From contig BGKB01000189.1 of assembly GCA_003116975.1 (NCBI GenBank), forward strand, positions 113,703-177,702: 64,000 nucleotides of DNA, given 5' to 3'. Position numbers and translations under genes: made by a program. This DNA is from Aurantiochytrium sp. KH105. Taxonomy: Eukaryota; Sar; Bigyra; Thraustochytrida; Thraustochytriidae. Under the pieces are notes generated by a model. The model had not been told where the DNA came from, searched no databases, and saw only the letters and a list, made by a program, of their open reading frames with translations. Positions 32,446 through 53,970 of the stretch are shown here, piece after piece (within the stretch, counting starts at the first letter, position 1; the number at the start of each line of letters is the position of its first letter).

Positions 32446-32575
32446 CTTTTCCGTGCTGCTCTCGACGAGCTGTATCCGACCTTTGTCTGTCTGCAGCTCA
32501 GGCTGCAGCTGGGCGGCCGGTCGTGCCTGGTTTGCAGGTTTCGGACGATGAGATGAGATGAACTGAACGGGATTT

Positions 32576-32591
32576 ATATCGTGCACGATAT
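32576..32591. promoter_or_regulatory. perfect 16-bp palindrome upstream of HAAO
   Basis: ATATCGTGCACGATAT, self-complementary over all 16 bases, about 130 bp before the HAAO start codon. A second copy of its core (ATCGTGCACG) lies at 32606-32615, about 28 bp further upstream. The paired arrangement suggests a dimeric regulator site, but no factor is known to me. Confidence 0.5.
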
Positions 32592-35059: not shown

Positions 35060-38020
35060 ATGGAACTCGTACGCGGTGATGATGAGCTGCTTCAAGATAT
35101 TCTCGCTGGAGTGGAGGCTGCCAGCTGGGCATGCGCAATACTCTTTTCATTGTGGGTCGTCGGCCTTGGTCGAAAGCCGACAGCATGTGCCGAAACCGGC
35201 CTTCCGAAGAAATTGCGCGAGGGTCTCCATGGCCAGTGGTTCGAGATCGCAGGGACGCACGGGTTTCCCGGTCGAGGACTTCGTTCGGCTCTGAAAAGAG
35301 ATCCAAGCAGGTACTCTTTGAGCTTTCAATTCACAAATACCGGCACAGACGTCATGGACGCTGTGATGACGACTACAGATTGCCCTGAGGACGGAGGTGC
35401 GTATCGCAATTCCTTTGTACAAGTGCGAGGCGCGCGGTCCGACGTCTTGCGAGTCCACATGCTGGTCTTGCCCGGCGCGCAGAGTTTTTCATTCCCATCA
35501 AAGTTGCTGCATCTGTCAGAGGACAACGACCTGCTTCTCTTAGGGTCGCCATCTGACAAGCATGTCATTCACGTGCTTTCAAAGGAGTCAAAACCGAGCC
35601 GCGAAAAGCTCATCCGAAGCATGCAAGTGGTTTTGGGCCTGGGATTCTCTCTTCAGGACTTGGGGCCACTCTCAAACTGCCAATATGTCTCGCAGACATC
35701 TGCCTTCTCCACGGTACGCCGCTACGGCATCCTCACCTCGCGCGAGACAAAGTTCAACAGCGAGGCTGGGTTTAATATGTCTTATAACTACGCCCGTGGC
35801 CGCCGGGGGGTGCGGCAGTCGGAGCAAAGCACAGCTGAGCGCACAAACCAATCATCCGGCTGGTCCGCCCAGAAGGAAATAGGGAACCCGGTCTCGCCCG
35901 AGATTTTCCGCGATCAGGTGGACAACGACCTGGAGTATCGAACCTTTGCCAAATTCTTCGATGGGTGTGTTCGCGGCGAGCAACGTTTCGTGGCGGACTT
36001 TATCGATCGCGAGCCCCTCTGGACCCTCGCGCGCCACAAAAGGACGCTTTGGACCGGCCTGCACTTTGCCGCGTACAACGGATACTCTGAGCTTGTCTCG
36101 TATTTTCTGGGGAAAGGATCGAATCCGTGCGCGCGTTCGGCTCGTGGCGAGTCTCCTCTTGCCGTTGCTTTAAAGGGCATGCTGAGGCACATTGGGGAGC
36201 GCATGCGGTGGGACGACGGAAGCTCGTGCGTCTTTGACCTTCGTGAAGGCGACGAAACCTACAGCCATAAACCACACTCTCTCGAGCGGTACGAGGAGAC
36301 AGTTCGAAAGCTTTTGTGGCACAGCCCGTGTCTCTCGACGCAATGCAATAATTTGGGCGAGGACCCCTTACGTCTTCTCCTCGCTGGATGGGCACGACTC
36401 GAAGAGTCAGCTTTGGCTGCCCATCCTCGAGTGGCAGAATACGCTAGACGTTACTTGCAACGCGTGCAACAGCGAATCCTGCGGGCTTCATACCTTCCCT
36501 CGGCCTTCATTCCGCTCGACTCAAATCTCAGACGCTCCGGGGCGCTGTTATCATGGGCACTTGCACGAGCGTGCGGGAAGGTTCTACATCTCGCGCATAG
36601 GATTCTCGACACAATCATTCTCGTATGTACTATACTCTGTCTCGGCGCTTTTTACTGGGGCGTATTCCGACCAATTGGCCTTTTGCTGATTTATTCGCGT
36701 GTCTGGGTGTCGTTCGAGTCACGGCAAATGGCCGCGGATGCTTTCAAGGGTGATTGTGCAGTCCTATTTATACTTTCTTTGGACTCTCCGATCGTGAGCA
36801 AGTTCGGACAACTGATTTCGGGGCGCATCGATCTAATTTCGCAAGCTGTGGCTAGTCGACTGTCGATCATGCAAAGCCATGGCATCTCGATGTCGCCTCG
36901 TGAGGTGAGGTCAACCCTCAACATGAACTATGGAGAAGACTACAGCCATATCTTTGAGGCATTTGATTTGAGGCCATTTGCAGTCGGAACTGTAGCTCAG
37001 GTTCACCGTGCGAGGCTTGCTAGCAATGGCGAGCTTGTGGCGGTGAAGATTATCAAACGCGGGATGGAAGAGGGCCTCGAGCGCTACCTTCGTCTTTTAC
37101 ATGCTTTGAGCTGGCTAGGTTTCTTTGGGAGGACAAAGGCAGCCCGTCTTCGCATCGAGCATCTAGCAATGATGTTTCTTCAGCAGACAGATCTCAATCT
37201 CGAGGCGGCTAGCATGCATGCTATGCAGCGCGAAGCGTGGGGCCACATTATGCGTGACGGGAACAATCTTCACACACCCGAATTCCCGATTGTCCACTCC
37301 CAATTTTCGATGCACCACGTGCTCGTGATGGATATGATGGAAGGCTGTGTGCCTCTGCTCGAATACCTTGCGAAGCCGACGTTCCCAATCAAGCTGATCT
37401 TGACGCGCTTGGGGCGGATTCACCTTCGTAATGAGTTCATGGATGGCCTCGTGCATTGTGATCTCCATCCGGGAAACATCATGATCCGACCTGACAATGG
37501 CCGAATTGTCCTTTTGGACTTTGGTCTTGTCGGGGAACTTACAGAATCTGATCGCGTGGGAACTACGCTTGCAATGCTCGCCGGAATCACAAGCCATGCG
37601 GATATTTCGGTCGATGTTTTCCTGACCAATTACATCCAGGATTCAGAATTTGTGTTTGCTGATCCTGATCTGCGCGCACGCTTTGTTGTAGCCATGCTGC
37701 CGTTGTTTCGCACGCATATGAGTACGTCTGGGTCCTGGAATTTCGCAGAGTTCTCAGCAGACTATACGCGTGTCCTGACTGACTTCGATCTCGGATTAAC
37801 CTCGTGCTGGTATATGCTTGAGATGAGTGTCATCCACATTGTGAGCACCTTGGCCCTATTGCAGCCCGAAGCTGCCTTCAAGGATGCGGTGTGGCAGCTT
37901 TTGCACGCGGAGCACGAGGCGCTCCTGAATAACATTGCTGGCTCAGAATATTACGACAGGCTGGAAGGGCCTTTGCGTCGCAAATTCGAATGGGCCAAAA
38001 TATTCCAGCGAAATAGTTAG
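35060..38020 (+). CDS. lipocalin-ankyrin-ABC1/UbiB kinase membrane protein, array copy 1
   Basis: 986 residues, no introns. Hydrophobic anchor at about 15-37. Lipocalin-like domain about 55-205: LHGQWFEIAG with G58-x-W60-F-E62, then the C-terminal lipocalin block HVIHVLSKESKPSREKLI ending in LGFSLQDLG. Ankyrin-type repeats about 298-450 (TGLHFAAYNGYSELVSYFL, then RGESPLAVAL). Hydrophobic hairpin about 514-550. ABC1/UbiB domain about 570-830: K581-F-G-Q584 (KxGQ), A-rich-loop position AVGT at 641-644, VAVK with K663, D801-L-H-P-G-N806, and D820-F-G822, so the ATP-binding and metal residues are all present. The COQ8/UbiB family are ATPases that support quinone or lipid metabolism. This is the most divergent array member and the only one with a canonical KxGQ. 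Substrate and location unknown; membrane attachment is likely. Confidence 0.92.
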   Translation: MELVRGDDELLQDILAGVEAASWACAILFSLWVVGLGRKPTACAETGLPKKLREGLHGQWFEIAGTHGFPGRGLRSALKRDPSRYSLSFQFTNTGTDVMDAVMTTTDCPEDGGAYRNSFVQVRGARSDVLRVHMLVLPGAQSFSFPSKLLHLSEDNDLLLLGSPSDKHVIHVLSKESKPSREKLIRSMQVVLGLGFSLQDLGPLSNCQYVSQTSAFSTVRRYGILTSRETKFNSEAGFNMSYNYARGRRGVRQSEQSTAERTNQSSGWSAQKEIGNPVSPEIFRDQVDNDLEYRTFAKFFDGCVRGEQRFVADFIDREPLWTLARHKRTLWTGLHFAAYNGYSELVSYFLGKGSNPCARSARGESPLAVALKGMLRHIGERMRWDDGSSCVFDLREGDETYSHKPHSLERYEETVRKLLWHSPCLSTQCNNLGEDPLRLLLAGWARLEESALAAHPRVAEYARRYLQRVQQRILRASYLPSAFIPLDSNLRRSGALLSWALARACGKVLHLAHRILDTIILVCTILCLGAFYWGVFRPIGLLLIYSRVWVSFESRQMAADAFKGDCAVLFILSLDSPIVSKFGQLISGRIDLISQAVASRLSIMQSHGISMSPREVRSTLNMNYGEDYSHIFEAFDLRPFAVGTVAQVHRARLASNGELVAVKIIKRGMEEGLERYLRLLHALSWLGFFGRTKAARLRIEHLAMMFLQQTDLNLEAASMHAMQREAWGHIMRDGNNLHTPEFPIVHSQFSMHHVLVMDMMEGCVPLLEYLAKPTFPIKLILTRLGRIHLRNEFMDGLVHCDLHPGNIMIRPDNGRIVLLDFGLVGELTESDRVGTTLAMLAGITSHADISVDVFLTNYIQDSEFVFADPDLRARFVVAMLPLFRTHMSTSGSWNFAEFSADYTRVLTDFDLGLTSCWYMLEMSVIHIVSTLALLQPEAAFKDAVWQLLHAEHEALLNNIAGSEYYDRLEGPLRRKFEWAKIFQRNS

Positions 38021-39018
38021 TGGATTGACCAAGATAGGCCTAGGTCTAGGTCTATACGAGAAAGACGTGCATGCTATCCTTAGAAGCTATCCTTAGAAGG
38101 GTGCTTCTTGCTTCTCGTGTGTGTGTATCTCTGATTGTACTGTTAGTTAAGCTTTATCCTGGAAGGCATCTTCTTGAGACAACTTTTTCAAAGTTTTGGT
38201 GCACTCCACAGCGAACAATAATCCTGGTTTTCAGAGCAGCTGCTCTCCCGCAACGAAGACACCACGTCCTATGGCGGTGTGCAGACTCGCATGGCTTGCA
38301 TGGCTTGCATGGCTGCGGCCGGCAGCAATTGACAGTGAGCGCGCTCGTGGCCCAATGGGTCCTCTTTAAGGCTAGCAGAGCCCTGTGTGGATACTCCGGC
38401 ACACAGTCAGTCGGTCCCACAAAGCGAGGGCCCAGCAGCTTCCCGCACTTCCCGCACTTCCCGCAGCATCGGCCAAAAGAGAAGGTGCAATGCTTTGTCC
38501 CTGTGTGCAGTGCATGACAGTTTGGAGGTGGTGACGATAGCAGCAGAACGGCAAGGAGGCGGGCGCCAGGCCCCGGCTGCGCGGCGCGGCAGTCGCGGGT
38601 ACGGAGCCGCGCGCGCGCGCGCCAGCGGCGCCTCGCAGCCTCACAGACGCCAGCGCCAGCGCCAGCTAGCCCCCGGCGTGAGCTGGTCTAGCGCCAGCGC
38701 GGAAGCGGACATCACGAGCTGACCCCGGCCAGCCGCGCCGCGAGGCTCCCAAGCACCGGTTTGCAGCACACCAAGCCAGGCGCGCGTGGGCCAGTCGCTT
38801 GGCAGGCAGGGGCCACAAGGGAGTCGAGCTGGCGGAGCTGTTTCACTCTGGGGAACTCTGCCGATCAAGGCGTGTTGACTGTCTGGCTTTGCCGAAGCTG
38901 CAACGGCACCACTGCGGTTGCCCTCGCGCCCTGTCATTTCCATTTCACCCCGCCCGCAAACACTTGCTTAGCTGCTGTTTTAAACGATTGCAAATCGTCG
39001 GCTTCTCTTCCAAAGGCC
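38021..39018. other. intergenic region, array copies 1-2
   Basis: About 1 kb. The frame of copy 2 is open back to 38761, but the sequence before 39019 has no similarity to the N-termini of the other copies. No other gene seen. Confidence 0.6.
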
Positions 39019-42000
39019 ATGGCCCTATGTGCTTTCCTTGACACAGAGGTGCTCGCCGAAATTCTCTTCGCCGTTGAATGTCTGGCTTGGGCATGTGCAA
39101 CTGTTTTCTCCATCGTGGTCTTGGCACTTCGGCCATCGCTGGCGTCACGTGTCGCGGTGGATGGCAGTGAGTGGATCAAAAAAGATCTTCACGGAGAATG
39201 GTTTGAAGTTGCGGGAATCATCGATCCAGTTGACCGCATGCTTCGGACTGCACTCAATCCAGATCCGAGCAAGCGAAACCTCTGCCTTCAATTTGTTCAT
39301 ACGCGACGTGACGCACTGGACTTTGCAATGTGCACCTCGAGCAACATGGAGGCCGGAAGTACCCATCAAAATATGTTTGGATGGGGAGGGTGCAATGCGG
39401 AAACAAGCACTTTGTTGTTTGGAGTTTCAATTATGTCAGGAAGACTTTCGCTTGTTGTCCCGATTATTCTGCTCCACATGAACAAGACGAAGAGAATCAT
39501 GCTGTGTACAAGCCCTACGAATCGAAATGTACTCTATGTTTTCTCAAAAGATCTACAGCCAAATCAGAAGGACATAATACCGATTCTTCAGGAAATAGTT
39601 GGTTTGGGGTATACTCTGAAAAATCTCAAAGCTGTTGTTCGAGGCGAGCCCAGGCCACGAGGTAGTACCCTGCCAAGTGTTCGGCGGTACGGAATCCTAC
39701 GTACAGAAGAAACTAAAGTTTCCACTCGTCTAGCGCTTTCCAATACCATTCGTGGCGTGAGCGAGCAAGACGCATCTCGTCATCAAGATCCAACGCACGG
39801 TCAACATGGAAGGACCGAGCAGTCTAAGCCATCAGGGCCTGGCGTACCATCCGTCTCATTCACGCCAAGAGATCACAAACCAATTCTTTGCGTTGACCCT
39901 TGTGTGTTCCGAAAAGCCGCTTCACCAGATCACAAAGCTCATTCATTTAGCAAATTCTTTGATGGCTGCGTCCGTGGTGACCAGCGCTTCGTTGCTGACT
40001 TTGTGGAGCGCGACTTTCTCTGGATTGTTGCACGACATCAGCGCAGTCTCTGGAGTGGACTCCATTATGCGGCCTACAATGGTAATGTTGAATTAGTCGC
40101 CTTTTTCCTCCGGAACAAAGCTGATGCACGAGCGCACTCACTCCGCGGTGAAACGCCACTCATGGCTGCAATTGTAGGTGCGGTGAGGCATATCGAAGAA
40201 CGAATTCGCTGGGTCAGCGGAAATTCCTGTGTCTTTGACCTTGCTGAAGGCGACGAGTATTACAGCCACAAGCCGCACTCACTCGAGCGATACGACGAGA
40301 CGATCCGTATCCTACTTCGGTATGACTCGTGTCCATCTCGTCATCAGAATTGTTTAGGTTATGATCCATCTCAAGTGCTTCAAGTTGCGTTGCGCAAGCT
40401 TAACCCCGCGCTTAAACTCCACCCTCGCCTATCAGGCTACGTCCATAAACAAACCTGGCGTGTGCAGAACCAACTTCGTTGGGCCTCGATGTTTAATACG
40501 CCGTCTATTCGTCTCGACACAGATCTCAAACGTGCATGGGGCTTGCTTTTATGGGTTACGGTGAACATAGGGACCGGTTCGCTGCGCTATTTTCTCAAAC
40601 TTCTCGAGGCATTCGTTCTTGCCTTTGTGCTTGTCTGTGTCGGGTTCTTTTACTGGTGCATCTTCCAAACAGCAGGACATCTTCTTATCTTTGCGCGAAT
40701 ATGGGTGCCCCTGGAGGCACGTCAACGCGCGGCTCAGACTTTTAGCGGCGACTGCGCATTGCTCATCGTCCTCACGGTGGACTCGCCTGTTGTGACCAAG
40801 TTTGCACAGCTACTCTCGGGTCGCGTGGACCTCATTCCGCAAGCCGTGGCAGACCGGCTTGCCTTTTTGCAGAGTCGAGCTCCGCCGATGTCGCCACAGG
40901 AGGTGGAGGCCGCTCTGTGCAGGTGCTACGGCGAGGACCGCAGCTACCTCTTTGCGTCGTTCGACATGCGTCCCTTGGCCGTGGGCACTGTGGCGCAGGT
41001 CCACCGAGCACATCTTGCAAGCAGTGGGGAGCCGGTGGCTGTGAAGATTGTCAAGCGCGGCATGCGCAAGGGTCTCGATCGGTATCTCTTTTTGCTGCGC
41101 ATGCTGAGTCGACTGGGCGTGTTTGGGCGCAGCAAGGTGGCGCGGCTCCGCGTGGAGCATGTGACGATGATGTTTCGGCAGCAGACGGACCTGAATCTGG
41201 AGGCCGCGAGCATGCAGGCGATGCAGCGCGAGGCGCGGCGTCATCGGGTCCGACGGGAAGACCGCTGTCATGTCCCGGACTTCCCGCAGGCGTATTCTTT
41301 GTTCACGATGGAGAACATACTGGTGATGGACCTGATTGACGACTGTGTGTCTCTACAGGACTTTCTGGCGAAGCCGAGTGTCCCCGTGAAGGTGATGCTG
41401 GCACGTGTGGGCCGCATCTTCTATCGCAGCGTGATGATGGATGGTCTGCTACACTGCGACATGCATCCAGGCAACATCATGGTCCGTCCAGAGGACGGGC
41501 GCATCGTGTTGCTGGACTTTGGTCTCGTGGGCGAGCTGACGGAGTCTGAGCGCGTGGCGCTGGTGGCGTTTCATCTTGCGAGTGTATCGAATGAGTTTGT
41601 GTTTGCAGCAGAGATCTTTGTGGAGAACTTTGTGGCAGACGTGGATGGAAGGCTATCGGATGAGGACGTTCGTATCCGGTGTTTGGTATCGCTGGGCCCG
41701 GTGTTCGGGGCTCACTTCGGCGAGTTCGGCGGTTGGGACTTTGTGGAGTTCTCGGTGGATCTGGAGCGTGTGTTAAAGGAGTTTGACGTCGGGGTGACGT
41801 CAGCGTGGTCGATTTTGCAGATGGGTATCATGCATTTTCGAAGTACGCTTGCGCTTCTGCAGCGCGAGGGTGCTTTGCGCGATGTATTTCTTCCTTTTTT
41901 GCTTGCCGAGTATGATGTTCTACTGGGAACGCTCGTTGGGACCAAGTATCACAGCAAGCTTGCGGCTTCGGTGCGGCGAAAATTTAGCTGGGGTAGCATT

Positions 42001-42036
42001 TTCAACGGCGGCACATCGACCATTCAAGGAGCATGA
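39019..42036 (+). CDS. lipocalin-ankyrin-ABC1/UbiB kinase membrane protein, array copy 2
   Basis: 1005 residues from ATG 39019 (MALCAFLDTEVLAEILFAVE, good context GGCCATGG), chosen because it aligns with the N-termini of the other copies; the frame itself starts at 38761. Plan as copy 1: anchor, LHGEWFEVAG lipocalin start, VLYVFSKDLQPNQKD block, ankyrin (SGLHYAAYNGNVELVAFFL), hairpin, kinase. Kinase motifs: K594-F-A-Q (Gly of KxGQ replaced by Ala), RPLAVGTVAQVHRA, VAVKIVK, D814-M-H-P-G-N and D833-F-G. From about 40630 to 41950 it is nearly identical in nucleotide sequence to copies 3-5, whereas upstream it is strongly diverged, indicating conversion or module exchange. Confidence 0.92.
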   Translation: MALCAFLDTEVLAEILFAVECLAWACATVFSIVVLALRPSLASRVAVDGSEWIKKDLHGEWFEVAGIIDPVDRMLRTALNPDPSKRNLCLQFVHTRRDALDFAMCTSSNMEAGSTHQNMFGWGGCNAETSTLLFGVSIMSGRLSLVVPIILLHMNKTKRIMLCTSPTNRNVLYVFSKDLQPNQKDIIPILQEIVGLGYTLKNLKAVVRGEPRPRGSTLPSVRRYGILRTEETKVSTRLALSNTIRGVSEQDASRHQDPTHGQHGRTEQSKPSGPGVPSVSFTPRDHKPILCVDPCVFRKAASPDHKAHSFSKFFDGCVRGDQRFVADFVERDFLWIVARHQRSLWSGLHYAAYNGNVELVAFFLRNKADARAHSLRGETPLMAAIVGAVRHIEERIRWVSGNSCVFDLAEGDEYYSHKPHSLERYDETIRILLRYDSCPSRHQNCLGYDPSQVLQVALRKLNPALKLHPRLSGYVHKQTWRVQNQLRWASMFNTPSIRLDTDLKRAWGLLLWVTVNIGTGSLRYFLKLLEAFVLAFVLVCVGFFYWCIFQTAGHLLIFARIWVPLEARQRAAQTFSGDCALLIVLTVDSPVVTKFAQLLSGRVDLIPQAVADRLAFLQSRAPPMSPQEVEAALCRCYGEDRSYLFASFDMRPLAVGTVAQVHRAHLASSGEPVAVKIVKRGMRKGLDRYLFLLRMLSRLGVFGRSKVARLRVEHVTMMFRQQTDLNLEAASMQAMQREARRHRVRREDRCHVPDFPQAYSLFTMENILVMDLIDDCVSLQDFLAKPSVPVKVMLARVGRIFYRSVMMDGLLHCDMHPGNIMVRPEDGRIVLLDFGLVGELTESERVALVAFHLASVSNEFVFAAEIFVENFVADVDGRLSDEDVRIRCLVSLGPVFGAHFGEFGGWDFVEFSVDLERVLKEFDVGVTSAWSILQMGIMHFRSTLALLQREGALRDVFLPFLLAEYDVLLGTLVGTKYHSKLAASVRRKFSWGSIFNGGTSTIQGA

Positions 42037-43162: not shown

Positions 43163-46132
43163 ATGTTGAATCAAGATTTGATGGTCGCAGACTCTGAGCG
43201 TCTCCGCTGGCTGCTATATGTGCTCCAGGGCGCAGTCTGGGCGGCAGCAAGTTTGACCTCCGTCGGGCTTTTGATCTTCCGTACAAAGCCTATCCCGGAG
43301 AAACAAGGAGACACTAAAGTCATTCGCGAGCAAATGCATGGAGTGTGGTACGAGATTGCTGGTATTCACAGCGTTGCAGATCAGCTTTTTCGCTCCTCTT
43401 TGAACCCAGACTCAAGTGAAAGCAACTTGAGCTTGCAGATTATTAACACAGGCCAGCAAAACCTTGACTTTGCCGCAATTTCTGCGAACACAGTGGAAGC
43501 TGGAAAAGCGCATCAAACGATTTATGGGACTTTTTGTCCTGTTTCAAACCAGGCGTTTGACTTGAGAGTCTCGCTCCTCTCAGGAAGATTGATCCTGGCT
43601 GGTCGTGCGGAAATTTTACACATCGATGTGACGGAGGGTATTATGGTCTGGGGAAATAGCGCAGACCCAAATGTCGTGTACGTTTTTTCCAAAGATCCAC
43701 GGCCCACGAGAAGGCAAATGATTCCTATTCTCGAACACATTGTCAAACGTGGCTTCTCTCTTAAAAAACTCAAGTCCATCGTGCAGACACCCCAGAAACC
43801 CTCTTTCTCTGGCCACTCTACGATTCGTCGCTTCGGCGTCCTCACATCAAGCGAGATGTTGATTGCCCAAAGGCTGCATCGCTTTGTACAAGTCCCTACG
43901 AAAGATGCAAGGAATGTCGGCCAAAGAGGCAACGTCGAGCGCCATATTCTGGATCATCCTGTACAGCGCACAGAGAGCATTTTTGCTCATTCCGTCAATC
44001 CGGATATCTTCCGCAATCGCAAGAACCCCGACCTCGTTTCTTACGCAATGGATAAGTTCTTTGATGGCTGCGTGCGAGGCAATCAACGCTTTGTGGCTGA
44101 TTTTGTGGACCGCGAGTTCCTGTGGACCGTGGCGCGCGATCCGAAAACTTTCTGGTCCGGACTGCATTACGCAGCATATAATGGGTATACCGAGCTTGTG
44201 GGGTATTTCCTGGAGCGGAACGCGAACTCACTTGCAAACTCGCTTCGCGGCGAGACACCGCTGATGCTCGCCGTTCTGGGAATGATTCGGCATGTCGAAG
44301 AGCGCATCTCATGGGAGGACGGCACGTCATGCGTCTACGACCTTGAAGAGGGTGACGGCTTTTACAGCCACAAGCCGCACTCGCTCGAGCGATACAACGA
44401 GACGATCCGTATCCTACTACACCTCGATCCTTCCATGTATATGCATGAGGACAAACAGGGAAGGTCCCCTTTACAAGTCCTCGAAGCTGCCAAAGCGAAC
44501 CTTGCGCCGAGGCTTGAAGCGCATCTTGACCTCGCGAAATATGTTGAAAGGTACTTTTGGCGCACCGAGATCCGCTTCAAATGGGCGTCAGTCACAGCGA
44601 CAAGGCCTATCCCTCTGAACACAGATCTGAAGCGCGCAATAGGGATGCTGCTCTGGGTTTTTGTACGCACGTGCACTGGCTTGATACACTACTTTTTGAA
44701 GTTTGTGGATGCTCTAGGACTTGCCATTGTGCTTGTCTGTGTTGGGTTCTTTTATTGGTGCATCTTCCAAACCGCAGGGCATCTTCTTATTCTTGTGCGA
44801 ATATGGGTGCCCCTGGAGGCACGTCAACGCGCGGCTCAGACTTTTAGCGGCGACTGCGCATTGCTCATCGTCCTCACGGTGGACTCGCCTGTTGTGACCA
44901 AGTTTGCACAGCTACTCTCGGGTCGCGTGGACCTCATTCCGCAAGCCGTGGCAGACCGGCTTGCCTTTTTGCAGAGTCGAGCTCCGCCGATGTCGCCACA
45001 GGAGGTGGAGGCCGCTCTGTGCAGGTGCTACGGAGAGGATCGCAGCCACCTCTTTGCGTCGTTCGACATGCGTCCCCTGGCCGTGGGCACTGTGGCGCAG
45101 GTCCACCGAGCACATCTTGCAAGCAGTGGGGAGCCGGTGGCTGTCAAGATTGTCAAGCGCGGCATGCGCAAGGGTCTCGATCGGTATCTCTTTTTGCTGC
45201 GCATGCTGAGTCGACTGGGCGTGTTTGGGCGCAGCAAGGTGGCGCGGCTCCGCGTGGAGCATGTGACGATGATGTTTCGGCAGCAGACGGACCTGAATCT
45301 GGAGGCCGCGAGCATGCAGGCGATGCAGCGCGAGGCGCGGCGTCATCGGGTCCGACGGGAAGACCGCTGTCATGTCCCGGACTTCCCGCAGGCGTATTCT
45401 TTGTTCACAATGGAGAACATTCTGGTGATGGACCTGATCGACGACTGTGTGTCTCTGCAGGATTTTCTGGCGAAGCCGAGCGTCCCCGTGAAGGTGATGC
45501 TTGCACGTGTGGGTCGCATCTTCTATCGCAGCGTGATGATGGACGGTCTGCTGCACTGCGACATGCATCCGGGCAACATCATGGTCCGTCCAGAGGACGG
45601 GCGAATCGTGTTGCTGGACTTTGGTCTCGTGGGCGAGCTGACGGAGTCTGAGCGCGTGGCGCTGGTGGCGTTTCATCTTGCGAGTGTATCGAATGAGTTT
45701 GTGTTTGCAGCAGAGATCTTCGTGGAGAACTTTGTGGCAGACGTGGATGGAAGGCTATCGGATGATGACGTTCGTATCCGGTGTTTGGTATCGCTGGGCC
45801 CGGTATTTGGGGCTCACTTCGGCGAGTTCGGCGGTTGGGACTTTGTGGAGTTCTCGGTGGATCTGGAGCGTGTGTTAAAGGAGTTTGACGTCGGGGTGAC
45901 GTCAGCGTGGTCGATTTTGCAGATGGGTATCATGCATTTTCGGAGTACGCTTGCGCTTCTGCAGCGCGAGGGTGCTTTGCGCGATGTGTTTCTTCCTTTC
46001 TTGCTTGCCGAGTATGATGTTCTACTGGGAACGCTCGTTGGGACCAAGTATCACAGCAAGCTTGAGGCTTTGGTGCGGAGGAAATTTAGTTGGGGTAGCC
46101 TTTTTCAGAGAGACGAAGAGACTGGAGCATGA
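43163..46132 (+). CDS. lipocalin-ankyrin-ABC1/UbiB kinase membrane protein, array copy 3
   Basis: 989 residues. Anchor about 15-40, lipocalin start MHGVWYEIAG with G60-V-W62-Y-E64, VVYVFSKDPRPTRRQMI block, ankyrin repeats (SGLHYAAYNGYTELVGYFL, RGETPLMLAVLG, then a later LERYNETIRILLHLDPSMY unit), hairpin (VLVCVGFFYWCIFQTAGHLL), and kinase with K580-F-A-Q583, D800-M-H-P-G-N and D819-F-G. From 43788 onward it matches copy 4 at a constant 3828-bp offset with only scattered substitutions, while the first 625 bp (anchor plus lipocalin) differ throughout. No frameshift. Function as for copy 1. Confidence 0.92.
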   Translation: MLNQDLMVADSERLRWLLYVLQGAVWAAASLTSVGLLIFRTKPIPEKQGDTKVIREQMHGVWYEIAGIHSVADQLFRSSLNPDSSESNLSLQIINTGQQNLDFAAISANTVEAGKAHQTIYGTFCPVSNQAFDLRVSLLSGRLILAGRAEILHIDVTEGIMVWGNSADPNVVYVFSKDPRPTRRQMIPILEHIVKRGFSLKKLKSIVQTPQKPSFSGHSTIRRFGVLTSSEMLIAQRLHRFVQVPTKDARNVGQRGNVERHILDHPVQRTESIFAHSVNPDIFRNRKNPDLVSYAMDKFFDGCVRGNQRFVADFVDREFLWTVARDPKTFWSGLHYAAYNGYTELVGYFLERNANSLANSLRGETPLMLAVLGMIRHVEERISWEDGTSCVYDLEEGDGFYSHKPHSLERYNETIRILLHLDPSMYMHEDKQGRSPLQVLEAAKANLAPRLEAHLDLAKYVERYFWRTEIRFKWASVTATRPIPLNTDLKRAIGMLLWVFVRTCTGLIHYFLKFVDALGLAIVLVCVGFFYWCIFQTAGHLLILVRIWVPLEARQRAAQTFSGDCALLIVLTVDSPVVTKFAQLLSGRVDLIPQAVADRLAFLQSRAPPMSPQEVEAALCRCYGEDRSHLFASFDMRPLAVGTVAQVHRAHLASSGEPVAVKIVKRGMRKGLDRYLFLLRMLSRLGVFGRSKVARLRVEHVTMMFRQQTDLNLEAASMQAMQREARRHRVRREDRCHVPDFPQAYSLFTMENILVMDLIDDCVSLQDFLAKPSVPVKVMLARVGRIFYRSVMMDGLLHCDMHPGNIMVRPEDGRIVLLDFGLVGELTESERVALVAFHLASVSNEFVFAAEIFVENFVADVDGRLSDDDVRIRCLVSLGPVFGAHFGEFGGWDFVEFSVDLERVLKEFDVGVTSAWSILQMGIMHFRSTLALLQREGALRDVFLPFLLAEYDVLLGTLVGTKYHSKLEALVRRKFSWGSLFQRDEETGA

Positions 46133-47002
46133 TCTTGACATTTCCCGGGGCTCCAAGTCTGGCGGCTCTTGATTCGGGTGATTCTACGACGTGAAATGTA
46201 ATGATCCGACACAAGTGTATGCTTCGACTTTTTAGAAATCTTGCGAAAAATCGGAGATGTTGTGGAGCTCTCGGCCGCTTATGGATTTCATTCTGGAATT
46301 ATGAGGCTCCGAGGGATGAGATGATGTATACAATTAGAAATAAGAGGTCATTTACTCGAATTTTGAGAGTTCTTCTGAAGTATCATGTACGCAAGCTGAA
46401 TGAATAGAGTGTCTTGAACCCGTGCAAGGACTTAGCCACATTCAAGCTATTGACTTAGGACCTCGAGCAGAAGGCGCCATAGGCCTACATTATACTGCTC
46501 TCTCTTTTTCATTTTCGCTGCGTAGTAATCCCGTATTTCCAGGCGCCGAGACGCAAGCGGCGAGCGCGCGTACGGTGCCAAGACAGGTTTCAGGAGCGCG
46601 AGTGCGTGCGCGCGTGCGCGCGTGCGTGCGTGCGTGCGTGCGTCCGCCGTTCGTCGGTTTTCCTCGCGGGCGAAAGAGCGGCGAAGAAGCAGGCAAGCCG
46701 CGTCAGGTCCGTTCTAATCGAGCACACCTTCGGATCAAAGCTGACGAGCTCGGCCTGGCAGGCCTCGTCGAGTGAGTGGAAGTCCTGGCCAGGCCTGGCC
46801 AGTCTCGAGAAAGGTGGGCTGGTTCCACTCTTTTTCGAAGCTGAAAAGACCGCGAAAACGGCAGGGTCACGAACGATAGGGGTGTTTGTGCCTCAGCTTG
46901 CCCCCCAGAGCGAATGCATCCCGACGGCTCTCTAATCATCAATCCAATTCTGAGCTGGCTATAGGCAGCGAGCCCTGATCAGAATACCTGACAAGCAAAG
47001 CG
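46133..47002. other. intergenic region, array copies 3-4
   Basis: 870 bp with a GTGC/GCGC alternating repeat (46601-46643). No supported gene. Confidence 0.6.
46601..46643 (+). repeat. (GTGC)n / GCGC alternating purine-pyrimidine tract
   Basis: About 43 bases of GTGC and GCGC units, a sequence type able to adopt Z-DNA. Confidence 0.85.
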
Positions 47003-49960
47003 ATGCTTAATGTTGCAGACGCTGAGTGTCTCCGGTGGCTGCTTGATGTTTTGGAGTTCACAGCTTGGGTATCTGCAAGTCTGGTCTCCATCGGGCTTTT
47101 GATCTTCCGCACGAAGCCTCCTCCGCAGGAGACAGGAAACACCAAGGCCTTTCGTGAATCGCTCCATGGTCAGTGGTATGAGATCGCTGCTATTCACAGC
47201 GTTGCTGATCAGTTTTTTCGCTCTTCTCTTCGATTCGACTCAAGTGAGAGTAATTTGAGCATGCACCTCGTTAACACAGGCCAGCAAAACCTTGACTTCA
47301 CCACGACTACCTCAAACACAGTCGAAGCTGGGAAGACGCACCAAACGATCTCTGGGACTTTTTGTCCTATTTCACAGGACACACTCAACATCAAGTACTC
47401 CATCTTCTCAGGAAGATTGATGTTGCACGCTTCTTTGAAGATTTTCCAATTCAACGAAACGCGAGACATCCTGGTGATGGGAAATGTCGCAGACCCAAAT
47501 GTTGTGTACGTCTTTTCCAAAGATCCACGGCCCACGAGAAGGCAAATGATTTCTATTCTCGAGTGCATTGCAAAGCGCGGCTTCTCTCTTAAAAAACTCA
47601 AGTCTATCGTGCAGGCACCCCAGAAACCCTCTTTCTCTGGCCACTCTACGATTCGTCGCTTCGGCGTCCTCACATCAAGCGAGATGTTGATTGCCCAAAG
47701 GCTGCATCGCTTTGTACAAGTCCCTACGAAAGATGCAAGGAATGTCGGCCAAAGAGGCAACGTCGAGCGCCATATTCTGGATCATCCTGTACAGCGCACA
47801 GAGAGCATTTTTGCTCATTCCGTCAATCCGGATATCTTCCGCAATCGCAAGAACCCCGACCTCGTTTCTTACGCAATGGATAAGTTCTTTGATGGCTGCG
47901 TGCGAGGCAATCAACGCTTTGTGGCTGATTTTGTGGACCGCGAGTTCCTGTGGACCGTGGCGCGCGATCCGAAAACTTTCTGGTCCGGACTGCATTACGC
48001 AGCATATAATGGGTATACCGAGCTTGTGGGGTATTTCCTGGAGCGGAACGCGAACTCACTTGCAAACTCGATTCGCGGCGAGACACCGCTGATGCTCGCC
48101 GTTCTGGGAATGATCCGGCATGTCGAAGAGCGCATCTCATGGGAGGACGGCACGTCATGCGTCTACGACCTTGAAGAGGGTGACGGCTTTTACAGCCACA
48201 AGCCGCACTCGCTCGAGCGATACGACGAGACGATCCGTATCCTACTACACCTCGATCCTTCCATGTATATGCATGAGGACAAACAGGGAAGGTCCCCTTT
48301 ACAAGTCCTCGAAGCTGCCAAAGCGAACCTTGCGCCGAGGCTTGAAGCGCATCTTGACCTCACGAAATATGTTGAAAGGTACTTTTGGCGCACCGAGATC
48401 CGCTTCAAATGGGCGTCAGTCACAGCGACAAGGCCTATCCCTCTGGACACAGATCTGAAGCGCGCAACAGGGATGCTGCTCTGGGTTTTTGTACGCACGT
48501 GTACTGGCTTGATACACTACTTTTTGAAGTTTGTGGATGCTCTAGGACTTGCCATTGTGCTTGTCTGTGTTGGGTTCTTTTACTGGTGCATCTTCCAAAC
48601 AGCAGGACATCTTCTTATCTTTGCGCGAATATGGGTGCCCCTGGAGGCACGTCAACGCGCGGCTCAGACTTTTAGCGGCGACTGCGCATTGCTCATCGTC
48701 CTCACGGTGGACTCGCCTGTTGTGACCAAGTTTGCACAACTGCTCTCGGGTCGCGTGGACCTCATTCCGCAAGCCGTGGCAGACCGGCTTGCCTTTTTAC
48801 AGAGTCGAGCTCCGCCGATGTCGCCACAGGAGGTGGAGGCCGCTCTGTGCAGGTGCTACGGAGAGGATCGCAGCCACCTCTTTGCGTCGTTCGACATGCG
48901 TCCCCTGGCCGTGGGCACTGTGGCGCAGGTCCACCGAGCACATCTTGCAAGCAGTGGGGAGCCGGTGGCTGTCAAGATTGTCAAGCGCGGCATGCGCAAG
49001 GGTCTCGATCGGTATCTCTTTTTGCTGCGCATGCTGAGTCGACTGGGCGTGTTTGGGCGCAGCAAGGTGGCGCGGCTCCGCGTGGAGCATGTGACGATGA
49101 TGTTTCGGCAGCAGACGGACCTGAATCTGGAGGCCGCGAGCATGCAGGCGATGCAGCGCGAGGCGCGGCGTCATCGGGTCCGACGGGAAGACCGCTGTCA
49201 TGTCCCGGACTTCCCGCAGGCGTATTCTTTGTTCACAATGGAGAACATTCTGGTGATGGACCTGATCGACGACTGTGTGTCTCTGCAGGACTTTCTGGCG
49301 AAGCCGAGCGTCCCCGTGAAGGTGATGCTTGCCCGTGTGGGTCGCATCTTCTATCGCAGCGTGATGATGGACGGTCTGCTACACTGCGACATGCATCCAG
49401 GCAACATCATGGTCCGTCCAGAGGACGGGCGAATCGTGTTGCTGGACTTTGGTCTCGTGGGCGAGCTGACGGAGTCTGAGCGCGTGGCGCTGGTGGCGTT
49501 TCATCTTGCGAGTGTATCGAATGAGTTTGTGTTTGCAGCAGAGATCTTCGTGGAGAACTTTGTGGCAGACGTGGATGGAAGGCTATCGGATGATGACATT
49601 CGTATCCGGTGTTTGGTATCGCTGGGTCCGGTATTTGGGGCTCATTTCGGCGAGTTCGGCGGTTGGGACTTTGTGGAGTTCTCGGTGGATCTGGAGCGTG
49701 TTTTAAAGGAGTTTGACGTCGGGGTGACGTCAGCGTGGTCGATTTTGCAGATGGGTATCATGCATTTTCGGAGTACGCTTGCGCTTCTGCAGCGCGAGGG
49801 TGCTTTGCGCGATGTGTTTCTTCCTTTCTTGCTTGCCGAGTATGATGTTCTACTGGGAACGCTCGTTGGGACCAAGTATCACAGCAAGCTGGAGGCTCTG
49901 GTGCATAAAAGGTTTGGGTGGAGTAGGATCTTTGCGAGGCAAAAACCTCGTAGCAGCTAA
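47003..49960 (+). CDS. lipocalin-ankyrin-ABC1/UbiB kinase membrane protein, array copy 4
   Basis: 985 residues. Anchor, lipocalin start LHGQWYEIAA, VVYVFSKDPRPTRRQMI block, ankyrin repeats, hairpin, kinase with K576-F-A-Q, D796-M-H-P-G-N and D815-F-G. The lipocalin region shares only part of its residues with copy 3 (for instance IHSVADQ.FRSSL and INTGQQNLDF-like LVNTGQQNLDF), but after 47616 the two are almost the same. In the hairpin it shares base variants with copy 2 (ACAGCAGGACATC then ATCTTTGCG) that copy 3 lacks, so its kinase half is itself mosaic. The extreme C-terminus (KRFGWSRIFARQKP) is unique. Confidence 0.92.
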   Translation: MLNVADAECLRWLLDVLEFTAWVSASLVSIGLLIFRTKPPPQETGNTKAFRESLHGQWYEIAAIHSVADQFFRSSLRFDSSESNLSMHLVNTGQQNLDFTTTTSNTVEAGKTHQTISGTFCPISQDTLNIKYSIFSGRLMLHASLKIFQFNETRDILVMGNVADPNVVYVFSKDPRPTRRQMISILECIAKRGFSLKKLKSIVQAPQKPSFSGHSTIRRFGVLTSSEMLIAQRLHRFVQVPTKDARNVGQRGNVERHILDHPVQRTESIFAHSVNPDIFRNRKNPDLVSYAMDKFFDGCVRGNQRFVADFVDREFLWTVARDPKTFWSGLHYAAYNGYTELVGYFLERNANSLANSIRGETPLMLAVLGMIRHVEERISWEDGTSCVYDLEEGDGFYSHKPHSLERYDETIRILLHLDPSMYMHEDKQGRSPLQVLEAAKANLAPRLEAHLDLTKYVERYFWRTEIRFKWASVTATRPIPLDTDLKRATGMLLWVFVRTCTGLIHYFLKFVDALGLAIVLVCVGFFYWCIFQTAGHLLIFARIWVPLEARQRAAQTFSGDCALLIVLTVDSPVVTKFAQLLSGRVDLIPQAVADRLAFLQSRAPPMSPQEVEAALCRCYGEDRSHLFASFDMRPLAVGTVAQVHRAHLASSGEPVAVKIVKRGMRKGLDRYLFLLRMLSRLGVFGRSKVARLRVEHVTMMFRQQTDLNLEAASMQAMQREARRHRVRREDRCHVPDFPQAYSLFTMENILVMDLIDDCVSLQDFLAKPSVPVKVMLARVGRIFYRSVMMDGLLHCDMHPGNIMVRPEDGRIVLLDFGLVGELTESERVALVAFHLASVSNEFVFAAEIFVENFVADVDGRLSDDDIRIRCLVSLGPVFGAHFGEFGGWDFVEFSVDLERVLKEFDVGVTSAWSILQMGIMHFRSTLALLQREGALRDVFLPFLLAEYDVLLGTLVGTKYHSKLEALVHKRFGWSRIFARQKPRSS

Positions 49961-50973
49961 ATGTGGCGGCAGCTCACGTTGTCGCAGCGTGTCGGGACTT
50001 GCAGTTTAAAGTTGTGTGAGCAGAGAGACGTCAAGTTCTACAGACGAGGGTTTCTCCCTCTCTTCCACAGCTTGCTTTGCTGTAGGTGCTGCAGCACGCG
50101 CGATCCCGCAAAACGAACGGTCCCGAGCTCGAGTGTGGGGTCTCGCATAATTTGTTATTGACAAAAGGACGTAGAGTGTGGGGATCCCCAGCTGTGGCGC
50201 GCCGCGTGGGTTCCAAGGGTGCCGGCGCCAGAGCACGAGAGCGAGCGCTTGCGCAAGAGCAACATCGCCGACTTTGAGACCCAGGGCGAGGCCCAGGCCG
50301 ACGACGGGGACGCAAGACCAAGATAAAGACCAAGACCGAGTCTGAGCCGAGACCAAGTTCGGGGCCGCGAGACCGCGAGCGAGCAAGGGCTGTCTGTTTT
50401 CGCGCTCGAGTCCGAGTCGGAGTCCGAGTTCCGGGCTGTTAATGCTAGTTATGTTTGTTTGCAGCTGCTGCTTGCCAAGCGGAGAGAGCAGGCGCAGGAT
50501 TGAAGCAGGCAAAACCATATCGCATCGCGGCGAGTTGGAGAGCGGCAGCGAAGACGTGCCGCGCGCGCGGCGTGCAGCGGGTGCCGCGTGCCGCGTGCCG
50601 CGATCGGCTCGGCAGTGGCCGCGGCCGGGAGAGCGAGTCGCGAGGAGGCGCACGATCACAGCTCTGCGCCACCTTGCGTGCTGGCTTGCATGGAGGAGGC
50701 GACGCAAGAGCGGCAAGAACGACCAACACCTCGGCTTGTATACAAGAGAAGAACCGCGAGAGAGGAGAAGCGAAGCAACCGACCTGCCTTGCTTGCCGTC
50801 GCAACGGCAAGAGGCGCACAGGACTTTGTACTGATTGTACTCCGGAATATTCAATAGGCTTGACGCAGGTTCCTTTTCTCGCGATCACATTCATGAGCAG
50901 CTGTCCGATCATTTTTTGAAGAGGCCCCCAAGAGCCCTTTTATACCCCGGTCATTGCGAGAGATCAAATTGAG
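49961..50973. other. intergenic region, array copies 4-5
   Basis: 1 kb. A 282-residue minus-strand frame (50006-50854) is Arg/Ala/Leu-rich with no domain and is probably chance. Imperfect GAGACCAAGACC-like repeats occur at about 50290-50420. A TTTTATACC stretch at about 50937-50945 lies some 30 bp before the copy 5 ATG and may be a TATA-like element. Confidence 0.5.
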
Positions 50974-53970
50974 ATGGAAAGCTGTACTTTTCGATCCTGG
51001 GATGCAACGCTTCGTGACACATTTTTCGTCGTGGAGATCATCGTGTGGTCGTGTGCAGTGCTAGCCACCCTTGTGCTCCTTTTTTCACGGAATCCACCAG
51101 CACAACAAGTCCGTTGCTTTGAGTCCAAGAATGTTCGCAAAGTTCTTCATGGTGATTGGTTCGAGATCGCTGGAATCTACACCTTTGCCGATCAGAGTAT
51201 TCGATCCACCTTGAGTCGTGACTCGAGCCACTGTAATGTGAGTGTGCAAATCACAAATACAGGAAACGAACTCTTGGATGTGTCTTTGATCGCGGCAAAT
51301 TCTGTGGAGGCTGGGAAGTCGCATCAGGGTCTTTTCTCGCGAATACTTGTTGCAAGCCCTGACTCTCTTCGTTTCCATGTGCCTTTACTTTCCGGGCGCT
51401 TGCTTCTTCATGTTCCAATGCTGATTCTGCACGTGAGTCCAACACATGATTTGATGGTCTGGGGATCACCAACTGACAGATCGGTCGTCTATGTCTTCTC
51501 CAAATCTCCGCGTCCGACACGAGAAAAGATGATTCCAGTCCTTGGCTTCTTGGTCAGAGCTGGATACTCGCTGAAGAAGTTACAGGCCGTTGTGCAAACG
51601 GTACAGGGCACGTCTAGTTTGGTCCTTCCAACCGTGCGCCGCTTTCGCATACTCAGCACTGCAGAGACGCTGCTTCGCGACGGCCAACTTGCGGAGGACT
51701 TTCAGCAGCCGACAGGAGTGTCGTCTGCGCAAAGCGACTCAACCCATTATAATCATTCTGATATCAATACGCAGCATTACGTTGCGAATCCGGGCTGGAG
51801 TCAGTCAACTACGCTCGTGTCGCCCAACATTCTTCGCAAAAAGGTCCATCCGGATGTTGAGGCATACACGCAAAGCAGGTTCTTTGAAGGATGCATTCGC
51901 GGCGATCAACGTTTTGTGTCTGACTTTGTTGAGCGCGAGATTCTCTGGACAGTGGCGCGACATCGCGAGAGTCTCTGGACAGGGCTCCATTTTGCCGCCT
52001 ACAACGCATACCCTGAGCTCGTGGCCTACCTTGCCGGCATTACTTCAAACCCGTTTGCGCGGTCGAATCTTGACGAAACACCGCTGATGGTCGCTGTCAT
52101 GGGGATGATTCGGCATGCTGAGGAGCGGATGCGTTGGGATGATAAATCCACTTGCGTTTTCGATCTCCAGGAAGGGGACGACTTTTACAGCCACAGACCG
52201 CACTCTCTCGAGCGATATGATGAAACCATCCAGATACTACTGAAATTCGATTCGTCACTCCCGCGCCACAGAAACCGGCAAGGTGAAGACCCTTTGCAAT
52301 ATCTACGTTCGGCGATCAGTGCAATGGAGCCATCGTTAAAAGTCCACCCTCGCATTGCAACTCAAGTGCTGGGCCATTTCACACGCGTGCAGCGTCGCCT
52401 TACTTTGGCCTCATATGCGAACTTTCAGCCTGTCAAGCTTGACACAGATCTGAAGCGTGCAGCGGGGATGCTGCTCTGGATTGTGGTACGCACGTGTACT
52501 GGCCTGATACATTACTTTCTAAAGTTTGTGGATGCTCTAGGACTTGCCATTGTGCTTGTCTGTGTTGGGTTCTTTTACTGGTGCATCTTCCAAACCGCAG
52601 GACATCTTCTTATTCTTGCGCGAATATGGGTGCCCCTGGAGGCACGTCAACGCGCGGCTCAGAATTTTAGCGGCGACTGCACATTGCTCATCGTCCTCAC
52701 GGTGGACTCGCCTGTTGTGACCAAGTTTGCACAACTGCTCTCGGGTCGCGTGGACCTCATTCCGCAAGCCGTGGCAGACCGGCTTGCCTTTTTGCAGAGT
52801 CGAGCTCCGCCGATGTCGCCACAGGAGGTGGAGGCCGCTCTGTGCAGGTGCTACGGAGAGGATCGCAGCCACCTCTTTGCGTCGTTCGACATGCGTCCCC
52901 TGGCCGTGGGCACTGTGGCGCAGGTCCACCGAGCACATCTTGCAAGCAGTGGGGAGCCGGTGGCTGTCAAGATTGTCAAGCGCGGCATGCGCAAGGGTCT
53001 CGATCGGTATCTCTTTTTGCTGCGCATGCTGAGTCGACTGGGCGTGTTTGGGCGCAGCAAGGTGGCGCGGCTCCGCGTGGAGCATGTGACGATGATGTTT
53101 CGGCAGCAGACGGACCTGAATCTGGAGGCCGCGAGCATGCAGGCGATGCAGCGCGAGGCGCGGCGTCATCGGGTCCGACGGGAAGACCGCTGTCATGTCC
53201 CGGACTTCCCGCAGGCGTATTCTTTGTTCACAATGGAGAACATTCTGGTGATGGACCTGATCGACGACTGTGTGTCTCTGCAGGACTTTCTGGCGAAGCC
53301 GAGCGTCCCCGTGAAGGTGATGCTTGCCCGTGTGGGTCGCATCTTCTATCGCAGCGTGATGATGGACGGTCTGCTACACTGCGACATGCATCCAGGCAAC
53401 ATCATGGTCCGTCCAGAGGACGGGCGAATCGTGTTGCTGGACTTTGGTCTCGTGGGCGAGCTGACGGAGTCTGAGCGCGTGGCGTTGGTGGCGTTCTACC
53501 TGGGTTGCATCTCGAATAAGTCTGTGTTTGCAGCAGAGATCTTCGTGGAGAACTTTGTTGCAGACGTGGATGGAAGGCTATCGGATGATGACGTTCGTAT
53601 CCAGTGTTTGGTATCTTTGGGCCCGGTGTTTGGGGCTCATTTCGGCGAGTTCGGCGGTTGGGACTTTGTGGAGTTCTCGGTGGATCTGGAGCGTGTGTTA
53701 AAGAAGTTTGACGTCGGGGTGACGTCAGCGTGGTCGATTTTGCAGATGGGTATCATGCATTTTCGAAGTACGCTTGCGCTTTTGCAGCCCGAGGGTGCTT
53801 TTAGGGGAGTGTTGAAACAGCTCCTCCATTCTGAACATTCGATGTTACTGGACGCACTCATTGGCACCAAGTATCACAGCAAGCTTGAAGTCCCTGTGCG
53901 TCAGAAGTTTGGGTGGGGCCTTCTCTTCAAGAGTGATCGCAAGCTTCGTGCTGAGCAGGTTTACTCTTGA
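50974..53970 (+). CDS. lipocalin-ankyrin-ABC1/UbiB kinase membrane protein, array copy 5
   Basis: 998 residues. Anchor about 14-32, lipocalin start LHGDWFEIAGIYTFADQ, VVYVFSKSPRPTREKMI block, ankyrin (TGLHFAAYNAYPELVAYL), hairpin, kinase with K584-F-A-Q, D804-M-H-P-G-N and D823-F-G. It becomes nearly identical to copies 2-4 from about 52490. Near 53495-53530 there is an island of difference (FYLGCISNKS against FHLASVSNEF), and after about 53785 the tail reads QPEGAFRGVLKQLLHSEH, closer to copy 1 (QPEAAFKDAVWQLLHAEH) than to copies 2-4. The kinase core therefore seems overwritten by a conversion tract, leaving ancestral ends. Confidence 0.92.
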   Translation: MESCTFRSWDATLRDTFFVVEIIVWSCAVLATLVLLFSRNPPAQQVRCFESKNVRKVLHGDWFEIAGIYTFADQSIRSTLSRDSSHCNVSVQITNTGNELLDVSLIAANSVEAGKSHQGLFSRILVASPDSLRFHVPLLSGRLLLHVPMLILHVSPTHDLMVWGSPTDRSVVYVFSKSPRPTREKMIPVLGFLVRAGYSLKKLQAVVQTVQGTSSLVLPTVRRFRILSTAETLLRDGQLAEDFQQPTGVSSAQSDSTHYNHSDINTQHYVANPGWSQSTTLVSPNILRKKVHPDVEAYTQSRFFEGCIRGDQRFVSDFVEREILWTVARHRESLWTGLHFAAYNAYPELVAYLAGITSNPFARSNLDETPLMVAVMGMIRHAEERMRWDDKSTCVFDLQEGDDFYSHRPHSLERYDETIQILLKFDSSLPRHRNRQGEDPLQYLRSAISAMEPSLKVHPRIATQVLGHFTRVQRRLTLASYANFQPVKLDTDLKRAAGMLLWIVVRTCTGLIHYFLKFVDALGLAIVLVCVGFFYWCIFQTAGHLLILARIWVPLEARQRAAQNFSGDCTLLIVLTVDSPVVTKFAQLLSGRVDLIPQAVADRLAFLQSRAPPMSPQEVEAALCRCYGEDRSHLFASFDMRPLAVGTVAQVHRAHLASSGEPVAVKIVKRGMRKGLDRYLFLLRMLSRLGVFGRSKVARLRVEHVTMMFRQQTDLNLEAASMQAMQREARRHRVRREDRCHVPDFPQAYSLFTMENILVMDLIDDCVSLQDFLAKPSVPVKVMLARVGRIFYRSVMMDGLLHCDMHPGNIMVRPEDGRIVLLDFGLVGELTESERVALVAFYLGCISNKSVFAAEIFVENFVADVDGRLSDDDVRIQCLVSLGPVFGAHFGEFGGWDFVEFSVDLERVLKKFDVGVTSAWSILQMGIMHFRSTLALLQPEGAFRGVLKQLLHSEHSMLLDALIGTKYHSKLEVPVRQKFGWGLLFKSDRKLRAEQVYS

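Follow-up and report, generated by a model that had tools for sequence, protein, structure and literature searches.

A tandem array of five genes in the thraustochytrid Aurantiochytrium sp. KH105 encodes what homology and a structural model indicate to be membrane-anchored proteins in which a lipocalin of the Blc/TIL type is fused to ankyrin repeats and to an atypical kinase of the UbiB family. The array lies in a stretch of 64,000 nucleotides (NCBI GenBank assembly GCA_003116975.1, contig BGKB01000189.1, positions 113,703 to 177,702 of the forward strand), referred to here as the window; positions given without a contig name are window positions. The most telling feature of the array, which goes beyond the first-pass annotation of this DNA and is new here, is that the kinases of four of the genes are homogenised and the lipocalin heads are diverged. 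The diverged carrier ends and near-identical kinase ends suggest that a common engine has been equipped with various lipid-binding heads. The best reading, to which a probability of roughly one half is given, is that the genes encode ATP-driven UbiB lipid-handling machines that would serve different lipophiles by way of their built-in lipocalins.

Homogenised kinase ends and diverged lipocalin heads

Two copies of the array occur in the genome searched (76 Mb, 367 contigs), one in the window (haplotype A, contig C189, genes a1-a5) and one at C29:517538-536414 (haplotype B, genes b1-b5), and none of the ten matches contains an internal stop. On both haplotypes the array is flanked by a 3-hydroxyanthranilate dioxygenase gene on the left and by the gene at 57941-60142 on the right. 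Ten open copies, the conserved flank order on C29, and the unrelated spacers rule out a pseudogene or a collapsed duplicate. Because the second haplotype holds the same five genes, and the allelic ratio of nonsynonymous to synonymous substitution rates (dN/dS) is 0.13-0.26 over whole genes (0.13, 0.19, 0.26, 0.17, and 0.13 for genes 1-5), the five are not chance open reading frames (ORFs).

Within columns 560-940, the best same-haplotype paralog of genes 2-5 was closer than the allele in 71 of 72 comparisons (four genes, nine overlapping alignment windows, two haplotypes); in the remaining comparison the two were equal to three decimals. In the four alignment windows at the start, with all five genes counted, a paralog was closer than the allele in none of 40 comparisons. 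Gene 1, the most divergent of the five, stands outside the conversion group: its paralog was never closer than its allele in 25 alignment windows. Synonymous divergence (dS) of the kinase between haplotype A neighbors was 0.082 (genes 2-3), 0.035 (3-4), and 0.040 (4-5), as counted for three of the six haplotype A pairs among genes 2-5 and for none of haplotype B, and 0.126-0.178 between alleles of genes 2-5. The lipocalin regions of same-haplotype paralogs share 43-57% DNA identity (77% for genes 3/4), and those of alleles 94-98%. The tree of the heads pairs alleles, with support (Shimodaira-Hasegawa-like approximate likelihood ratio test/bootstrap) of 98-100 for genes 1, 2, 4, and 5 and of 76/85 for gene 3. 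In the kinase tree, a2-a5 come together (99.5/60), as do b2 and b5 (99.5/99), the pairing of b3 with b4 being unsupported (0/58), and forcing alleles to pair on this tree costs 209.9 log units and is rejected by the approximately unbiased test (p 2e-92). The homogenised tracts start near codons 482-540 and end near codons 930-990, except that those of genes 3/4 start at codons 162-167, within the lipocalin (Table 1).

Spacers between the genes have no mutual similarity at a blastn E of 1e-3. The pattern is read as concerted evolution through intrachromosomal gene conversion, which homogenises the kinases of genes 2-5 while the heads diverge. Recent duplication was rejected as its source, because heads and spacers are old while the kinase parts are young and haplotype-specific, the dS count behind this covering three of the six haplotype A pairs among genes 2-5.

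Allelic dN/dS was 0.03, 0.06, 0.04, 0.02, and 0.09 in the kinase and 0.17, 0.23, 0.58, 0.34, and 0.10 in the lipocalin of genes 1-5, respectively; given the allelic values, purifying selection acts on the kinase, the lipocalin, and the ankyrin part, and most strongly on the kinase. The hydrophobic region of gene 2 gave 0.76, and values above 1 were confined to the N-terminal 50 residues of gene 3 (1.50, 11 changes) and gene 4 (1.07, nine changes).

Lipocalin head

The identification of the head as a lipocalin, made originally from short motifs, was borne out by profile comparison, by a PDB profile search, and by structure. In profile-profile comparison (hhalign), which replaced tests with single heads and with a single lipocalin sequence, the head profile reached a score of 53.1 against lipocalins, and the best of 200 shuffles scored 22.1; the alignment covered 74 columns in the run with shuffle controls and 137 in the other run. 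This is the homology at the level of sequence profiles that is expected of a lipocalin. A profile search of the PDB with the head returned TIL1 (E 5.8e-4) and no other match below E 0.2. In the AlphaFold model of gene 4, the head forms an eight-stranded barrel followed by a C-terminal helix, and its best matches among solved structures are plant TIL and E. coli Blc. Structure prediction and profile search had been named beforehand in the first-pass annotation as the tests on which its lipocalin call should stand or fall, and the call survived both.

Pfam Lipocalin_2 gave sub-threshold matches to genes 3 (E 0.019), 4 (0.0017), and 5 (0.0021). Genome-wide, the same model returned four matches at E<=1: two to a genuine lipocalin, as two alleles (E 3.0e-23 and 8.3e-23), and two, below the cut-off, to array gene 5 on both haplotypes. 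The genuine lipocalin, at L030:1450-1959 (+) and L031:1471-1980 (-), is the one Lipocalin_2 gene that this search found standing alone, and its near-identical alleles are of the Blc/TIL type.

Proposed mechanism

In the mechanism that we propose, the UbiB domain would use ATP to pull a lipophile from a membrane or lipid body, or to return it there, as proposed for yeast Cqd1/Cqd2; quinones, prenyl lipids, and oxidised fatty acids are candidates. The tethered lipocalin would be the cup that receives or presents the lipophile, and the ankyrin repeats would dock partners. A single type of ATP-using module would be common to all five copies, with gene conversion maintaining its uniformity in genes 2-5, and cargo choice would differ between copies via the diverged lipocalins. 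A stronger version is more tentative, at clearly less than even odds: a modular lipid-selector array, in which one conserved UbiB module, held uniform by ectopic gene conversion, and diverged heads give a single cell several ATP-driven machines that differ in specificity and that extract lipids and hand them over (or sense them). If this were true, the natural fusion would imply that UbiB kinases in general pass their lipids on to carriers of the lipocalin kind, which would then be the partner so far missing from quinone distribution. Since thraustochytrids are known for oil storage, the array may plausibly be linked to lipid storage or oxidative stress.

Several observations weigh against the lipid-handling reading. 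Some concern the divergence of the heads: allelic dN/dS of the lipocalin is below 1 in all five genes (0.10-0.58), which does not show a different cargo for each copy; conversion between genes 3 and 4 also spans the ankyrin part and the lipocalin end; and the homogenised tails could to some extent be a product of how similar copies were assembled or polished. Others concern the lipocalin itself. Genes 1 and 2 have no Lipocalin_2 match in Pfam at E up to 10, and the genome-wide Lipocalin_2 search did not recover genes 1-4. A small hidden Markov model (HMM) of a lipocalin alignment was run against single heads of 11 proteins (a1-a5, b1-b5, and the public relative P0002), in seven of which at least one of 200 shuffles reached the real score; the best of 92 other segments of these proteins, at 4.4 bits, exceeded six of the 11 heads. 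The head profile matched the genome's single lipocalin sequence with a probability of only 32.6%. In the gene 4 model, the barrel has a predicted local distance difference test score of 50-77 per 10-residue block, the predicted template modelling score of the whole is 0.38, and the kinase N-lobe is poorly modelled.

The weak single-head HMM scores would also fit a mistaken lipocalin call, in which the head is another beta-rich domain that resembles lipocalins, as would Pfam results that stay below cut-off in three genes and give nothing for genes 1 and 2, and a head-profile search of the protein collection that found no stand-alone relatives at E<=10. That explanation is very improbable and largely refuted by the profile comparison with its shuffles, by TIL1 as the sole PDB profile match below E 0.2, and by the modelled topology with its structural matches.

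Kinase domain and competing interpretations

All five genes match the ABC1 model (PF03109), at 130-137 bits against a cut-off of 22.9 and with E values from 9.8e-38 to 6.3e-40, while VAVK, D[LM]HPGN, and DFG are intact in all ten gene copies on the two haplotypes, so that the ABC1/UbiB kinase and motifs recognized in the first-pass annotation are confirmed. The KxGQ position reads K[FL]GQ in gene 1 and P0002 and KFAQ in genes 2-5; its glycine is also replaced elsewhere in the compared set, by KLAQ in L023/L024 and KTAQ in P0056.

The A-rich loop reads A-V-G-T in the ten gene copies and in P0002, where COQ8B aligns A-A-A-S; the array thus lacks the AAAS loop of the COQ8 subfamily. By alignment and residue numbering, the array glycine would correspond exactly to COQ8A residue 339, and it apparently sits where glycine makes COQ8A hyperactive. 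The glycine mutants of this loop (A339G in COQ8A, so called in PMC7877690, and A197G in yeast) are hyperactive, and in COQ8A/Coq8 such a mutant is described as having more ATPase activity and cis-autophosphorylation (PMC7263595).

This loop bears on the main rival to the lipid-handling reading, a receptor-like signalling kinase, which we consider rather doubtful. In such a protein, the lipocalin would sense a hydrophobic ligand (sterol, oxylipin, haem, or pheromone), binding would switch protein-kinase activity, and the ankyrin repeats would recruit substrates; a shared pathway would account for the constant kinase and differing signals for the differing sensors. Sensor families do usually pair a constant effector with a variable head. 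The glycine found in the ten copies and P0002 is the change that raises ATPase activity and cis-autophosphorylation in COQ8A/Coq8 (PMC7263595, PMC7877690), and phosphorylation of VTE1 by plant ABC1K1 has been reported (PMC7263595; in vitro per PMC4915526). However, the glycine need not mean signalling, because another kinase gene of this genome (L014/L015) and a Trebouxia relative (P0053) share it. Both have the loop glycine, Q-x-D, and D-[LM]-HPGN in common with the array, and on these motifs both look ADCK2-like to us.

The same motifs would suit a housekeeping quinone or prenyl-lipid protein: an ADCK2/Cqd1-type kinase whose extra domains only tether or stabilise it, present in redundant dosage copies with drifting heads. 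Gene conversion alone can hold tails alike while diverged heads escape. This explanation is nevertheless unlikely. In a kinase tree of 37 rows (L025, L026, and L029 dropped; 11 of 58 whole-protein hits used; named human and yeast ADCK2 not included), the array and P0002 form their own long-stemmed clade (100/100), which is not joined to L014/L015/P0053, the deep branching being without resolution. The genome also has that ADCK2-like gene apart from the array. In the array proteins, the 15 residues ahead of helix 1 have a neutral or acidic net charge, which does not resemble a mitochondrial presequence, and comparison of alleles shows purifying selection on the lipocalin heads.

The genome's further ABC1 kinase genes (L011-L029) are mostly allele-like pairs. 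L013 resembles L011/L012 with HYDPHLGN replacing HCDPHPGN, and in L025/L026 the DxHPGN and DFG motifs are not in the aligned frame, which may reflect introns or decay.

Architecture and membrane topology

As architecture, the lipocalin-ankyrin-UbiB kinase fusion is well supported. The five same-strand genes of about 985-1005 codons at about 4-kb spacing described at first pass are indeed five uninterrupted plus-strand ORFs with start-to-start spacing of 3.8-4.1 kb (Table 1). The start of gene 2 was placed at the first ATG; the mechanical ORF begins at a TTG at 38761. The expected N-terminal anchor is encoded in all five as a membrane helix.

Table 1. Genes, gene 4 domains, and homogenised tracts of the array (window positions)
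Feature	Position	Strand	Details
Gene 1	35060..38020	+	986 aa; transmembrane helix, lipocalin, ankyrin, hydrophobic helix, ABC1 kinase; KFGQ
Gene 2	39019..42036	+	1005 aa; architecture as gene 1; kinase KFAQ
Gene 3	43163..46132	+	989 aa; architecture as gene 1
Gene 4	47003..49960	+	985 aa; architecture as gene 1; protein modelled with AlphaFold
Gene 5	50974..53970	+	998 aa; architecture as gene 1
Gene 4 N-terminal membrane helix	47021..47104	+	Residues 7-34 in the model; predicted by model and hydropathy
Gene 4 lipocalin domain	47144..47623	+	About residues 48-207; eight strands 56-172, helix 179-191
Gene 4 ankyrin-repeat region	47855..48424	+	Residues 285-474
Gene 4 long hydrophobic helix	48452..48625	+	Residues 484-541
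Gene 4 ABC1/UbiB kinase domain	48797..49519	+	Pfam match, residues 599-839
Homogenised tract, gene 2	40625..41962	+	97.7% to gene 3
Homogenised tract, gene 3	43660..46062	+	98.5% with gene 4; end of lipocalin, linker, ankyrin, kinase
Homogenised tract, gene 4	47488..49890	+	Common with gene 3
Homogenised tract, gene 5	52441..53801	+	97.0% to gene 4

Ankyrin repeats, the next element of the predicted architecture, are clear as a fold in the gene 4 model, where tandem helix-turn-helix repeats match the DARPin 2xen (root-mean-square deviation 1.4 over 91 residues). Pfam ankyrin models match all five genes, but above the curated cut-off (PF00023) only in genes 2, 3, and 4; genes 1 and 5 have no ankyrin model above it. 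The proposed hydrophobic hairpin is less certain: hydropathy resolves two adjacent segments in eight of the 11 proteins (a3, a4, a5, b2-b5, and P0002), but one segment in a1, a2, and b1, and the gene 4 model has a single long helix in this region.

The 15 residues preceding helix 1 carry a net charge of 0 or below in all 11 proteins, and the 15 following it are net positive in eight (0 in a2 and b2, -2 in b3). Because of these charges, the positive-inside rule would place the lipocalin in the cytosol. The kinase would be on the lipocalin's side of the membrane if the second hydrophobic region were a hairpin or a surface helix, so that the two domains probably share one side, a placement that would also suit the ankyrin repeats. 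The flank charge favors the same side in eight of 11 proteins, a weak test in which charge counts alone are no proof. The suggestion that ligand is bound outside and the ATPase lies on the other side is therefore not supported by the charges flanking helix 1, and the two-sided topology was set aside on them.

The dioxygenase gene adjoining the array, a 3-hydroxyanthranilate 3,4-dioxygenase (PF06052), lies at 31516-32586 (-) and occurs also on the C29 haplotype. Farther left are an ORF with an FRG domain (PF08867, E 6.8e-24) at 26480-28096 (-), a domain found mainly in prokaryotes, phages, and mobile elements, and, at 23099-26113 (+), a 1005-aa ORF whose flavin amine oxidase domain is preceded by a long N-terminal extension.

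Relatives in public data

Whole-protein and profile searches (58 and 50 hits, respectively), each of which scored the best 8000 candidates, yielded only two proteins, P0002 and P0003, that appear to share the head, as judged by coverage and precomputed domains; beyond these, only P0004 and P0005 were domain-scanned singly. P0002, encoded on a contig of 6849 bases (source "lgn"), has 48% identity over 93% coverage and the same domain order. P0003, a Hondaea fermentalgiana protein named as a chloroplastic ABC1 kinase, equals haplotype B gene 1 minus three pieces, with three residues differing. The absent pieces of 147, 564, and 324 bases (49, 188, and 108 residues) are multiples of three with no in-frame stop and have GT..AG borders within two bases of the break. 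Since their loss would take away a portion of the barrel along with the hydrophobic helix and the N-lobe of the kinase, the gaps have the look of annotation errors, and the three "introns" are likely false, hiding the lipocalin and the kinase N-lobe. The near-identity of P0003 with gene 1 supports a labyrinthulomycete, and within it thraustochytrid, setting for the array and suggests DNA of Hondaea or of a strain very near it.

Two other hits, P0004 (ABC1 with class-III aminotransferase by Pfam) and P0058 (ABC1 with methionine synthase domains by precomputed Pfam), could be gene-model fusions.

The open-access literature searched, a scope outside which most subscription papers and preprints fall, yielded no description of a lipocalin-ankyrin-UbiB kinase family, and within it the first-pass statement that no family with this combination has been described stands.

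Significance and comparison with known systems

The array touches on the action of UbiB/ABC1 kinases on lipids and on the way in which quinones get out of the membrane of their synthesis; the mobilisation of coenzyme Q is called a longstanding mystery in PMC8346625. A natural fusion of a UbiB kinase with a lipid carrier is a direct pointer to a partner, and a single protein would let ATP use, lipid extraction, and lipid binding be assayed jointly. With a constant module and diverged lipocalins, cargo choice could be addressed by swapping heads between paralogs.

Like the UbiB/ABC1/ADCK family (COQ8, Cqd1/ADCK2, Cqd2/ADCK1-5, and plant ABC1K), the array kinases have PF03109, VAVK, DxHPGN, and DFG, with a KxGQ-like motif that keeps its glycine in gene 1; they differ in being fused to a lipocalin and ankyrin repeats, in the A-loop AVGT, QTD for ExD, and KFAQ (genes 2-5), and in forming their own clade. 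With Blc/TIL/ApoD lipocalins, the heads share the G-x-W start, the strand order, the C-terminal helix, and the best profile and fold matches. Known members of that group are small, stand-alone proteins, whereas the array barrel heads a membrane kinase.

The host organism is not known to have plastids; two further parallels come from plants. FBN11 is a fibrillin that combines a lipocalin-like PAP domain and a kinase domain in one chain (PMC11580037), and among the systems encountered it is the nearest described fusion in kind, though from other families. It resembles the array proteins in joining a lipocalin-like, lipid-associated domain to a kinase. By contrast, its kinase is of another kind (worded there as protein kinase C or STT7) and precedes the PAP domain, and the text available from PMC11580037 makes no mention of a tandem array for FBN11; no PAP domain is found among the Pfam matches of the five array proteins at E up to 10. 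In plastoglobules, ABC1 kinases and lipocalin-like fibrillins occur together on lipid bodies (PMC4915526). There, as in the array, an ABC1 kinase is paired with a lipocalin-like protein, although as separate plastid proteins rather than as one protein. A single protein that joins an ABC1 kinase to a lipocalin would fit an extract-and-hand-over machine whose cargo is set by the head.

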